Positions 49,201 to 64,000 of a DNA stretch of 64,000 nt are shown here, in pieces. Below the pieces are notes generated by a model, which saw only the letters and a list, made by a program, of their open reading frames with translations, searched no databases and was not told where the DNA came from. The stretch covers positions 3,718,001 to 3,782,000 of the forward strand of contig CAIIXF020000001.1 in the NCBI GenBank assembly GCA_903813345.2, written 5' to 3'. Numbering within the stretch: the stretch's first letter is position 1; every line of letters starts with the position of its first letter. This DNA comes from Owenia fusiformis. Taxonomy: Eukaryota > Annelida > Polychaeta > Sabellida > Oweniidae. The translations under genes and the position numbers were made by a program.

Positions 49201-52200
49201 TACTCATGCTTCAGATTCAACTGCTGTTCAGTGTTAACTCAGGGGAGGTCATTCACATGTACAATCCCAATGCTGATGAGAGAAGAGCATTCTTCCAGGA
49301 CCTATTGCTCAATCAGGCTTGCAAAACACCAAAACGAAAACTAAGAAAAAGTAAGTATTATCACAAATTAAGTTTGAAACACTACCGTACACATACATGG
49401 TCTTTCATGTCTCACTATTTTAATTATCAGGAATTTTTTTATAATCACAAATTGAAATTTGTGCAAATAAGTATGATAATATAGAACTGATTTGCACCTC
49501 TTGCCCAGGTTACCAAAATATTGAAATGTTTCTTCCAGCTAGTAGCCTAGAGGTCCTTCCCTTAGCTCCACCCCCTGAACCAAGGAAACTTTCCGAAAGA
49601 GAAATGAAACGCCTCCATAACCAAGAAGAGGCTACACTCCGTGAATTACGGCTCTTTATTCGTGACGTCATTAACAAGTTGGCCCGAGACAGAAGGTTTA
49701 ATATCTTTGCAAAACCTGTGGATCCAGAAGAAGTATGTTTTAGCACTTTCCATGAATTAAAGCTACACTGGTGTTATATTTATTGTTGCCTCTTCTTTTG
49801 CTAGTATTTTGGGGAGGCTGGGTACATTTTTGATTTTCTGACCTATAACCTTGTGTGTTAAGTCTTGTTCAAGCATTTTCAGCTCTACCGTTTTGCTCTT
49901 TAAAGTGCAATATTTATCATGGTGTGCTCTGTAATATATGTAAGGTTTCATTATGATATGAAACCACTCAAAACAACACAGACACCGTTTATTTGCTGAT
50001 TGATTCTCTAACTTTCCAGGTAGATGACTATTATGATGTGATCAAAACACCAATGGATTTATCCACGATGATGTCAAAGATTGACTTACACAAGTACCAA
50101 ACTGTCAAAGATTTCCTAGATGATATAGATCTGATCCGCAGCAATGCTTTAGAATACAACCCAGATAGACATCCTGAAGGTAAGTGAAATATGTAGTATT
50201 TAGTAATATTTTAGAGTACAACCTGGACAGACACAACTTACACAAGTGGGTGAAATATCCAGCATGCCCATTGCCCTAATTTAGCTATGGAAAATTTAAG
50301 GGAAGAACCATGTCTCTAAAAGTAAAGCATTTTAATTGAGAATTGGTTCCATTTCTTCCTATGAAAACCTAAAGCTGAATAGCTATTGTGGGGAGTTGCT
50401 GTTGTTCTAATTTCTGACTCTGACACAGTTGATTTTAAATTCAAATAGGCAAAACAAGCATTTGTTTGATTCTACAGTACTTGAGATTTATGTAAAAAGT
50501 GAAACAAACTAAACGACAGCAAAATGTTACCATATTTGATCTGTTTATTGCAGATAAGGCTGTGCGCCACAGGGCATGTGCACTCAGGGACCTTGCACAC
50601 TCCATAGTTGATGCAGATCTAGACAGGGACTTTGAACGACAATGTGAGGAGATCGCTGAATCAAGGGAAAAACGAGGTGTGCAGCCACTGTTTTTTCGTT
50701 TTTGTCATTATTACACATGTATTTACACATCACCTAAACGAATCATTTATTAGCTAACAAACAGAAATCTAAATCGTCAAGTTACAGATAATTATATTCA
50801 TAAAAAATTTGTCATGTATTAAATTCAGGTACATTTGTGAATTGATAAATTCAAAGTAATTGCTATTTTTTTTATAATGCATCCATTTAGGAATTGCCCC
50901 GAACCTAGTTAACTACATTGACTTAGTCTTCTCTTTACCCATAAATATATTTCTCTATTGTTTTCATGTAATACAACTTTCGAATGTACCAAAGGAATAA
51001 GATTTAATAAACCATGAAAACATTTCAGGTCCTTCTCTTCCTGAGACTGCCCCTGCTTTCTACCATGTAAAACCAATACAGAACCCCCAGGCCTCACAAG
51101 CCCCTAAACCACCCCCAACTATACCCCAGCCAGACAGATTCTCTCGTCGAACCCGGGGGTTGAACGCTATTCAGGAAGCCCAGGAAACCACTCCATCTAC
51201 CTCAACAGGTGGCGCTACTACTTCACATCAACGCTCACACCCAGCATCTGCCCCTGTAATACGATCTCGCATACATACCCCCGGTAAAACCCCACTGACT
51301 ATTCCAAAACCTAAAAAGCAAAAGAAATGCATATGGGCATCATCGAGTAGAAGAAATAAAAGGAGAACTCACTGGGCTAGTCGTTTTTGGGCAAAAAGAC
51401 GTGCAGAAATGGCTGAGAATGAACCAGAAGTAGACCAGGGTATAGAAATTGATGATGGCATGGATATTGATGAACAGGATGAAACCAAAGATTTGAACAC
51501 AACTGAAGAAATAGTCATTCTTGACAATGATCTCAATGAAACCATAAAGACTGCAGGTACATCTGAAACCACTGCTGATGTATTAAAACCATTACAAATA
51601 GACACCTCAAATAAAGCAACTGACATTAAAGAATCAGCATTAAATTCGCCAAGTACTCGATCTAAGGGACTATCCCCAGTAGCTCTTTCCCCAAATACAC
51701 GTTCCAGAGCTAAGTCCCCGATTGCTCAATCTCAAGGTTGTAAATCACCAGGAGGCCATTCTCCAATAACAAAGTCTCCCCGATCTCTGCGAGCCAAGTC
51801 ACCAATTGGGTCACAGAGAGTACAGACAATTATAGAGAGTGATCTATTAATAAAAGACTCTGAAGATTCCAATGATACCAAAGCAAGCTCAGGGACCACA
51901 ATTTCCAGGGATGACAGCGGTATTTGTAGTGCACAAGAGAGTAATGGAGAAGTCCTAGAAAAACCAAATGAACCACAGGTAGGTTGATGCATGCTTGACA
52001 TTTTTGCATATTCCCATGAACTGCTTCACTCCAGTAATTATAATAGCTGGCAACGAGTCATCTTTTCTAGATGTTGTGTTTCAGAATCAAAAGTATATTA
52101 AATAGAGATTTTCATTATAAAGACCATGGTCCTTTGATTGGATATTGTTTAGGTTTAATTCACAAAAAGTGATTTTGACTGAAGGTTATCAATCATCCTA

Positions 52201-58622: not shown

Positions 58623-58754
58623 GTATCTCCATTCCACCAGAGTATTGTACACACTGTATCTCCATTCCACCAGAGTATTGTACACACTGTATCTCCATTC
58701 TACTAGAGTATTGTACACACTGTATCTCCACTCCACTAGAGTATTGTACACACT
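58623..58754. repeat. 33-bp minisatellite, four copies, overlapping the 3' end of the Death-TIR CDS
   Basis: The plus-strand unit starts GTATCTCCATTCCACCAG at 58623, 58656, 58689 and 58722, with small variants. On the minus strand, the copy at 58722-58754 carries the stop codon and last codons of the Death-TIR gene; the other three lie in its 3' UTR. The plus-strand ORF 58462-58839 is an artefact of this array. Confidence 0.9.
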
Positions 58755-61700
58755 GCACATTTCTGAACATGCACCTGTTGTACACCAGTCTGCCTGCTTC
58801 CCATACTCCCATGTGACATATTTCGATTTGTGGGATTAGTTCGTTGATCACGTCCAACGGCATAATCTGGTATAACTAGTGGTTCACTGTTTGAACTGTA
58901 TCTATCACCACTTGATAAAGTCGATTGAGAATGGTTGGAATTTTTAGCATTAAGTTGTGTAATCTGGGGAGTCATTTCAACAGATTTGCGAGGTGAAGGG
59001 ATAGCATATCGTGATAAGCGCTGGATAATCTCAGCATAACGCGATTCAAGATCTGCATGAATACCTGATCCTCCATGACCCCCTATACCTGCAAATATAA
59101 TCAATTATTGTGTTCAGAATATGTTAGTGTGTGTCTACAGAAAAACAGAAAATCGAGTAAAACCAGTGGATACTGAATATCCTTTGTGGAAATACTAAAT
59201 GAAAACACATTGCTCACATTCACTGAATAAATCAGACATAATTTTATTCCATTCGTATTTATTATTCAAAGTCACACATAACAAAATGTCAGCATAATAG
59301 GATGATGACATCACTCATATTGGCATTCATGCTAGTCAAACCCCAATTATCCATGTGTGTATGTGCAAAGTGATTCTTTAAGGAAGAAATTAGTTAAATA
59401 TGACACATTAACTCCACATATTTGGACATCCATTCCCAAACAAGGCATGAACATGACAAAATATCACCACCTAATTGGTCACAATATTGTGAGTTCAAAT
59501 CTGAAGTCAGATTTGAACATCTGAGAACTTTTAGATGAAGCAAGTCATTTTGAAGCAAGTTGAAAAACACTTTTTGACGTTTCTTTACCTTGGGAAGGTC
59601 ATCGAAGGTCATATTTGAATTTTTGAGAACTTGAAGATAATTTTGAAAAACATTGGTCAATTTTAAGCAAATTGAACAGAGACCTCTTTGACATTGAGAA
59701 GGTCATTGAAGGTCAAATCTGAAATCAATCTGACTTGTAGATGATTTTGAAAAAACAATTGGTCAAATTGAAGCAAGTTGAAGACCTTTTTTGACCTTGA
59801 GAAGGTCATTGAAGGTAAAATCTCAGATGTAAAGGCAGATTTGAACTTCTGAAAATTTGTGAATGATTTTGAAAAACACTGAATCAGTTAAACAGAGCTT
59901 GTTAAGTTATTGGAAGTTGTACGAATTTGTGACAGAAGCAAGATACCAGACGCCACCCAACGTCACAAAAAATGGAGACCATAACAATATGTCACCACTT
60001 TTGGTGCTGATATAAAAATGTAAAGTCATTTGCACAAATAGGTCAAATAATATCAAACTAACTGTATACTTCTAAAAATTACTCTTATTCACTCATTATG
60101 CACCTCATATATCTCCTTAGATCTTCTTATATACATGTATCTTTAACTATTGAGACCTTATACTATTGTCAGTGGTAGAATCAGACTAAATATAAAGTAG
60201 TATAGTGCATGTAACTTGGCCTACCTTTCATATCTACATAGACCAGCTGAGAAAAGACAAGGGACATGCCACCTGGTGGGGGCCAGGGGACTCTGTCAAA
60301 CATCACTGGAATGATAGCTTTATGTAGTAGATCTGCGAGACTCAGCTCTCTGTTGCAGTGATGGGACACTATGTACTTGGGGCTAACACATGCTATAACA
60401 ACCTAAAATAAAGTATAGAAAAATATTATTCAAAAGTTCCTCACAAAGAATTGCTAAAAAATGTTCTTGATTCGAAAAAATAGTAGTGTTTATAGACACT
60501 CTTATTCCTTAGAAATATTCTACCTTGTATGAATAAATATAACATTTTCAAATAAGAATATATGCATACATATAACGAAAATAGACATTTAATCAAGCAA
60601 CTGAAAAAAGTGATGCAAAATTAGTTCAACTTGTTTTGTGAGAGCAATTTTTTTATTTGCCAAGTGCACCAATAATTCATTATTTCAAATAAAAATCCTT
60701 GACTTCAATTAAAGACACATTTTACATGTAATCTACCTTTGCATTTCTTATGCCCTCATCAATTTTAGCGTTAAGTTGGTCTCCACCTCCCATTTGTCCA
60801 ATATCCATCCAGCAATTGTAGCCACTTTTCTCCAGTCGATCTCGCAATCCCGTCACCTCATCTTGGATGTCCCATTGGTAGCTGATAAACACCTGAGGGG
60901 GCTCAAGCTCTGCTTCTGCAACAAACCCAATGTTATTAGGGTATACAGTAAAACATATTATATCTGAACACCACTGGTGCCGGCAAAGAGTGTTCTGATT
61001 TTGATCCACACTACATTTAGTGCGAATAGTTTACACTTCCAATGAAAGTGGTTCTATACTTCTGGCTATTAAGGGACATAACCAATATAACACAATTATT
61101 AATAAAAAAAAAAAGTATATTTTATAAGTATATTTAGAAGAAAATCAGGAAATCAAATCTTCATTTACCTATTTTTGGGGATACTTTTAGGTTGTTAATG
61201 TTTCAAGAAATGTTGAATGTCTTACAATTGGTTAGGTTTGGGGCACAAATTAATAAAATCTCCTTAGAAACATATTGGACAAAATGAAAACTGGAATGAG
61301 AATAATGGGCCTAACCAACGTCAAAATGACTGTGATAACGTCAAAGCAATAATGACTGTCGTCAGAACAGTTCACAGTGTAATTTCAGGTCATTATCTCC
61401 AGAAATGAAAAGTTATATCTTATCCCCATTAACCAAAAGTTTTCAAAAGTTGATTGTATAATTTGTATATATTCATTGATTTCTTGAAATTGTCTTTTTA
61501 TTGTGTGTGTAGTTTTCTTCTTTACCAAACAGAGGAATGAGTGGGGGGTAATTGGAGACACATTAGATAAAACACATTTGAATTTTTAAACAACAAAATT
61601 TGGACTTTTTTATTTACTTTTAAATATATTCAGACTTTGTAGAGCTCAGAAAATGAGCCTTGTCTGTAAATTTCCTGAACTACTCTATTAGTAACTTATA

Positions 61701-61928
61701 AAAAAATTATACATATACAAATGTATTACAAATATTTTCTTAAAATCTAATTACCTCTTCCTTTTTGAATAATCTCCACGATGTCATCGCGAAACATTTG
61801 CTCCAAGTAGGAAACCATCATATCAATGGAAAGTGATGTGTTTCCACTAGTTATTATCCAATCAGCAAGCAGCATTAGACCAGGGTTGAGATCATCGTTA
61901 AACTTGTCGATTTTGAACTTTTTATATC
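58736..61928 (-). CDS. Death-domain / TIR-domain protein, C-terminal part
   Basis: Minus-strand exons 61928-61755, 60915-60737, 60402-60225 and 59088-58736 (stop TAG 58738-58736) join in frame to about 294 residues; the 5' end is outside the window or unseen. Exon 1 encodes the end of a Death fold (NPGLMLLADWIITSGNTSLS and LEQMFRDDIVEIIQKG). Exons 2-3 encode a TIR domain: PPQVFISYQWDIQDEV, GYNCWMDIGQMGGGDQL, VVIACVSPKYIVSHHC, NRELSLADLLHKAIIPVMF and PWPPPGGM. The Glu in NREL lies where NAD-cleaving TIRs of the SARM1 type carry their catalytic Glu. The last exon is a Ser/Asn-rich tail ending KCAVCTIL, a CaaX-like prenylation motif. Death plus TIR suggests innate-immune or cell-death signalling (MyD88-like layout), but the TIR is not the MyD88 type. 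Confidence 0.88.
59490..59885. repeat. ~104-bp tandem repeat (3-4 diverged copies) in Death-TIR intron
   Basis: The motif GAGAAGGTCATTGAAGGTCA recurs at about 59590, 59694 and 59799, each time with GATTTTGAAAAACA and GAAGCAAGTTGAA nearby. Copies diverge by small gaps. It lies in the intron between exons 60225-60402 and 58736-59088. Confidence 0.7.
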
Positions 61929-63536: not shown

Positions 63537-64000
63537 TGACCCTTGGTGACTCATGAATAGGTGACCTGAGGTCAAGGTCATTCCTAGGTCAAAAGTTAAT
63601 ATTTAGGTATTTGGTGATTTAAGGACTTTGGGGCTGCAGAGAAGCTTGGCTACACATGATTAGGTGACCTGAGGTCAAGGTCAATGTTCATGGTCAAGGT
63701 CATCTCAAGATCAAAGGTCAATATCTAAGTATTTGGCTTTTTAACGACCTTGAGGGCTGCTGTGACCCTTGGCGACCAATGATTTGGTGACCTGGGGTAA
63801 AGGTCTTTCCAAGGTCAAACGTCAATATCTAGATATTTGGCATTTGAAGACCCTTGAGACTTATGTGACCTTGAAGACCAATGATTGGGTGACCTGCGGT
63901 CAAGGTCATTCCAAGGTCAAAGGTCAATATCTAGGTATTTGGCATTTGAAGACACTGGAGGCTGCTGTGTCCTTGGTGACCCATGATTAGATGACCTGAG
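63537..64000. repeat. ~102-bp tandem repeat with many AGGTCA motifs, running off the right edge
   Basis: GTGACCTGAGGTCAAGGTCA (63561) recurs with changes near 63664, 63787 and 63889 and starts again at the window end. Units also share CAATATCTAGGTATTTGGC and TGACCCTTGGTGACC. The array is continuous to the edge, so its full length is unknown. Confidence 0.8.

Follow-up and report, generated by a model that had tools for sequence, protein, structure and literature searches.

The four minus-strand exons at the end of the analysed window (64,000 nt of Owenia fusiformis DNA, C1:3718001-3782000) almost certainly form the 3' end of a single gene with Neuralized (NHR), Roc, COR, Death and TIR domains. 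This architecture is already known in invertebrates and is not new, because domain descriptions in PMC5094078 and PMC9334734 imply or list such sets and, at the level of those descriptions, match the class. The Death-TIR arrangement that an earlier note had called unusual is thus a partial view of an architecture implied by the domain combinations of PMC5094078. The gene adds a member to a class that is known but uncharacterised, and a lipid-modified tail is a testable, unproven extra.

The assembly that contains the window has 525 contigs and totals 498,259,871 bases; its contigs C1-C12 measure 32 to 62 Mb each. Positions called extended continue the window numbering into 30 kb beyond the window edge. 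Exons were joined by splice sites and phase, with sites picked by score and by eye. The following features were located at the 3' end of the gene:

61755-61928, minus strand: exon for the second Death half; borders GT-AG, phase 1 at either end, 12.7 bits alone

60737-60915, minus strand: exon with the first TIR half (VFISYQW ... WMDIGQMGGGD); GT-AG borders, TIR_2 at 90.6 bits together with the next exon, own-genome TIR_2 match

60225-60402, minus strand: exon with the second TIR half, including the Glu (NREL) and a His at the aligned Trp place; GT-AG borders, TIR_2 match, alignment with AbTIR

58736-59088, minus strand: last exon, with Gly-rich junction, low-complexity tail, KCAVCTIL and stop codon TAG (58738-58736); GT-AG border and frame

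Extended 65115-64957, minus strand, outside the window: exon with the first half of the Death domain; joined Death 29.9 bits

58622-58755, no strand assigned: 33-bp minisatellite, 4.1 copies; the final codons V-C-T-I-L-stop fall in its first unit, and the remainder is 3' UTR

The four window exons show GT-AG borders, agree in phase, and splice into one frame that stays open as far as KCAVCTIL-TAG. Another 14 exons of the model lie upstream on that strand and supply NHR, Roc, COR and the first half of Death. All 18 GT-AG exons join in phase, giving an uninterrupted frame of 1254 codons from extended position 74873 down to 58736. Within this model the linker exon 72041-71851 (extended) is a guess, the Roc1 acceptor site is weak, and the start codon is simply the first in-frame ATG of its exon. 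Between two Roc exons, at extended 71851-72188, lies an open frame that repeats the words GTAEALEEEYHRAIA and from which the doubtful linker exon may derive. At extended ~85-94 kb, minus-strand exons matched methyltransferases (PrmA 29.3 bits; PRMT5 22.3 bits, just under cut-off) and presumably belong to a CARM1-like gene. Because these exons stand further upstream on the same strand, the 5' end of the Neuralized-Roco-Death-TIR gene is probably near 74.9 kb (extended). Elsewhere in the window, the only frame of at least 150 codons within positions 1-58000 was a Ser/Pro-rich frame of 328 codons at 51001-51987 (plus strand), for which no Pfam match was obtained at E 0.01.

In the joined 1254-aa protein the domain order is Neuralized(NHR)-Roc-COR-Death-TIR-tail, and all domains exceeded their Pfam cut-offs (Neuralized 143 bits; Roc 57.3, cut-off 27; COR-A 70.8, cut-off 35.3; Death 29.9; TIR_2 88). 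Roc followed by COR, both past cut-off, places the protein among Roco proteins. The GTPase motifs G1, G3 and G4 (GQDRVGKT, DFAG and THRNSLD) looked intact when judged by eye in the predicted protein. For the portion N-terminal to the TIR, the solved relatives were Neuralized (1.1e-37), bacterial Roco proteins (from 1.7e-19), LRRK2 Roc (from 2.6e-8) and the p75NTR Death domain (4.6e-6).

The earlier note had read the window exons as a bare Death-TIR protein with a low-complexity tail. The exons, the frame and the KCAVCTIL end were recovered, as were NREL, the WMDIGQMGGGD loop and CTIL, and TIR_2 reached 90.6 bits in the window exons alone (cut-off 28). The Death part of that reading was only the second half of the domain (12.7 bits, cut-off 22.6), which passes at 29.9 bits once it is joined to the first half, ~3 kb upstream across the intron that divides it. 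With the 14 upstream exons included, the predicted protein is no bare Death-TIR protein.

Genome-wide, Neuralized gave at least 19 matches at no fewer than four places and COR at least 22 matches; among the matches listed, only the Neuralized domain of this gene adjoins a COR match. COR was also found beside TIR_2 at the following loci:

C1:6.79-6.81 Mb, C2:22.93 Mb, C5:8.31 Mb and C12:0.21-0.24 Mb: COR and TIR_2 on the same strand, TIR reading FISYCW(S/A)NS

These pairs at first looked like paralogues of the window gene and were set aside on account of this TIR motif and of the lack of an adjoining Death match, the latter a weak point, as the same search missed the exon-split Death domain of the window gene. 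The four loci probably represent a second Roco-TIR family.

The account that we favour, with moderate confidence, is that the NHR-Roc-COR-Death-TIR gene encodes a GTP-set switch that assembles a MyD88-like Death-TIR complex; switching, assembly, lipid attachment and enzyme activity are all read from the domains. The N-terminal Neuralized domain would bind a partner or signal, and the Roc-COR GTPase, to judge by its domains, would act as a dimer switch set by GTP. The C-terminal Death-TIR pair would then build the signalling complex, in which Death might recruit Death-domain kinases or adaptors and TIR might recruit other TIRs. A geranylgeranyl group on the C-terminal CTIL, if the protein carries one, may in turn hold this complex at a membrane.

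CaaX boxes follow the PROSITE pattern C-{DENQ}-[LIVM]-x, and the C-terminus CTIL, which the earlier note had read as a CaaX box, fits it; that note had missed the overlap with the minisatellite. The array covers the V-C-T-I-L-stop codons and two bases of the Ala codon, and its coding-strand frame runs from VCTIL into a stop in units 1 and 2 but into Trp in units 3 and 4. An AATAAA starts 126 nt past the stop, just beyond the minisatellite, which fits 58736 as the coding end. From the positions of array and AATAAA, the array is likely to make up most of the 3' UTR, with the last codons in its first unit. No splice donor above threshold was found within the low-complexity tail of the last exon. 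Either the array expanded from the coding end, or the coding end came to lie within an array. Arrays of another kind, with units of ~100-136 bp rich in AAGGTCA/GACCTT-like words, were observed at window positions 59576-59823 (an intron of the gene) and 63692-63998 (the window end) and at the unlinked L011:590-1078; by inspection they look like one dispersed repeat family.

The position of V-C-T-I-L-stop inside the minisatellite suggests that the CaaX end arose by chance, the stop having fallen into the array, and that the protein is not prenylated. We regard this as the probable explanation of the CTIL end. It is in keeping with the Trp in place of the stop in array units 3 and 4, and with a background of 12/1687 random ORF ends that match the general CaaX pattern (5/1687 for its L/F form). 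The minisatellite was at one stage taken as a full dismissal of the CaaX box, and this was withdrawn in part once the gene with the most similar TIR proved to end in CVLL. That TIR, the nearest to the window TIR in the rest of the genome (63% across 78 residues), is the first TIR of the first of two genes:

C7 ~12.867-12.873 Mb (L004:2657-9204), minus strand: coiled-coil-like exons, Death (55.5 bits), TIR, TIR and a long tail of low complexity that closes with KPSKTCVLL-stop; its status as one gene with two TIRs is a reading of neighbouring exons

C7:1.7145 Mb (L011, C7:1712001-1715000), minus strand: TIR_2 gene ending SRSCTML-stop, in which SAM scored only weakly (15 bits, under the cut-off of 23)

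Neither the CVLL nor the CTML ending lies within a tandem array. AATAAA and ATTAAA were absent within 700 nt of the stop of the CVLL gene, and one such polyadenylation-type signal was present in the CTML gene, at 664 nt from the stop.

CaaL ends were thus found in 2/6 other related-TIR genes with a readable end (from a related set of 8 other genes, leaving out C5:8.318 Mb and C9:13.943 Mb, where the end could not be read). Among the other TIR ends, CaaX-fitting ends numbered 0/50 (10 ends, a mixed set of 20 and a TLR-like set of 20; the ends of L015-L024 were read by eye, those of L025-L044 were taken mechanically from the ORFs, so that introns may cut them short, and at least L030 and L032 of the mixed set also look like TLRs). 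Fisher's test of 2/6 against 0/50 gave p 0.0097; the comparison is post hoc, having been devised after CVLL came to light, and the relatives come from the same genome. Against the random ORF ends, the binomial for 2/6 was 7.4e-4 (general pattern) or 1.3e-4 (L/F). Over all 56 TIR ends it was only 0.06 (general) or 0.012 (L/F), in favour of chance. A literature search combining TIR with CAAX or prenylation, judged by titles and abstract openings, gave no prenylated TIR protein among the matches listed.

That the window gene has a functional prenylated tail, with CTIL geranylgeranylated and holding the protein at the membrane, is on this sequence evidence doubtful. A broader and rather unlikely reading is that several TIR proteins of this animal, all cytosolic and none a receptor (Neuralized-Roco-Death-TIR, coiled-coil-Death-TIR-TIR and TIR-SAM-like), are held at membranes by a C-terminal geranylgeranyl on a CaaL box, the first two via a long flexible tail. 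The window gene would then encode a Death-TIR platform that is prenylated, switched by GTP and equipped with an enzyme-type TIR. Were the lipid tail real, invertebrates would have a further way, besides transmembrane receptors, to place TIR signalling at membranes, and this placement would occur in a protein whose GTP switch is akin to the one in LRRK2. If the tail is a product of chance, the gene is an ordinary member of its class. Roco-Death-TIR proteins appear only as domain listings in the relevant passages of the literature cited here.

A second alternative concerns the TIR, which could be an active NADase and make the protein a GTP-switched, NAD-consuming death effector like SARM1. The alignments bear out the position that the earlier note had assigned to the Glu: NREL aligns with the catalytic position of AbTIR by single sequence and with that of SARM1 via a profile. 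The nearest solved chains by single sequence were bacterial TIRs, including the NADase AbTIR, with Glu on Glu and, four residues earlier, His on Trp. A profile built from seven of the genome's own TIRs (with five X in one row) matched Cat1 (4.2e-10), SARM1 (2.4e-8) and bacterial TIRs ahead of a Hydra Toll-related receptor (5.9e-5) and TLR1 (4.5e-4), and no chain named MyD88 was among its 49 matches. In the SARM1 profile alignment the Glu was matched and the Trp fell in an insertion. Because the profile is nearer to the TIRs of Cat1, SARM1 and bacterial NADases than to TLR1, it leans towards an enzyme-type TIR; by this result and the absence of MyD88, the TIR may be an enzyme and not a pure scaffold.

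The Glu itself, which the earlier note had taken as a pointer to NADase activity, was rejected as a sign of it: it was present in 20/20 TLR-like control genes of the same genome (Trp in 19/20; L045-L064, picked by long open frames and by look, without an LRR test) and so says little on activity. The 12 related TIR segments carried Glu in 11/12, Asp in 1/12 (C1:44.81) and Trp in 0/12 (segments typed by eye and including the COR+TIR genes, with C9:13.943 left out). The absence of Trp, with His aligned to it in the window gene, also speaks against the NADase reading, as Trp (W71) and Glu are both described as ligand contacts in SARM1 in PMC7075850. That paper reports Glu in >70% of all TIRs and no strict tie between it and activity, and in an account given in PMC13142454 two amoeba TIRs keep the Glu, yet showed no NAD processing or NADase activity. 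A Glu at the catalytic position is therefore not diagnostic. NADase activity of this TIR is possible, to judge from its sequence, but unlikely and less likely than scaffolding, and the same holds for the SARM1-like effector as a whole.

A shorter transcript with an internal start, encoding a bare Death-TIR adaptor and conceivable from an internal promoter as the 3-kb intron divides the Death domain, was rejected as highly improbable, since the Death half alone stays under cut-off, its exon starts mid-codon (phase 1), and the upstream exons complete both codon and domain and add NHR, Roc and COR.

The GTP-set switch carrying a Death-TIR pair can be compared with several known systems. MyD88, a Death-intermediate-TIR adaptor, has Death followed by TIR, as does this protein, which has further domains upstream; MyD88 is not known to contain Roc-COR or NHR. 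The upstream domains and the absence of MyD88 from the profile matches set the protein apart from MyD88. SARM1 and bacterial NADase TIRs such as AbTIR share the TIR sequence and the Glu position with it and differ in the Trp partner, which is His here; SARM1 is not known to have an NHR, Roc-COR or Death domain. TRAM/TICAM2 is a myristoylated TIR adaptor and as such a precedent for the idea of a lipid-held TIR adaptor, although with another lipid at the other protein end. In the figures given in PMC7075850, TIRs of MyD88 proteins rarely have the Glu (<10%), whereas it is present in this TIR.

The closest likenesses are those drawn from domain descriptions. In Aplysia, LOC101861518 is described in PMC9334734 as a MyD88-like protein with ROCO domains, and by this description it combines Death, TIR and Roc/COR in one protein, as here; the legend of Fig. 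6 in that paper lists NHR, ROC, COR, Death and TIR, and the NHR bearer is not named in the legend. Sea-anemone (actiniarian) Novel Gene 3 carries Roc/COR, Death and TIR according to the passages on it in PMC5094078, with Roc/COR followed by C-terminal Death and TIR as here, and with kinase and SH3 where this protein has Neuralized. The same passages name, as the combination most like Novel Gene 3, proteins of Strigamia maritima and Crassostrea gigas in which neuralized replaces kinase and SH3, as in the Owenia protein, and which have Death and TIR_2; Roc/COR is implied there by the comparison with Novel Gene 3, and the likeness is one of domain content as described. For Novel Gene 3, which is related, PMC5094078 suggests a possible role of the Death and TIR domains at the C-terminus in pathways of the MyD88 type.
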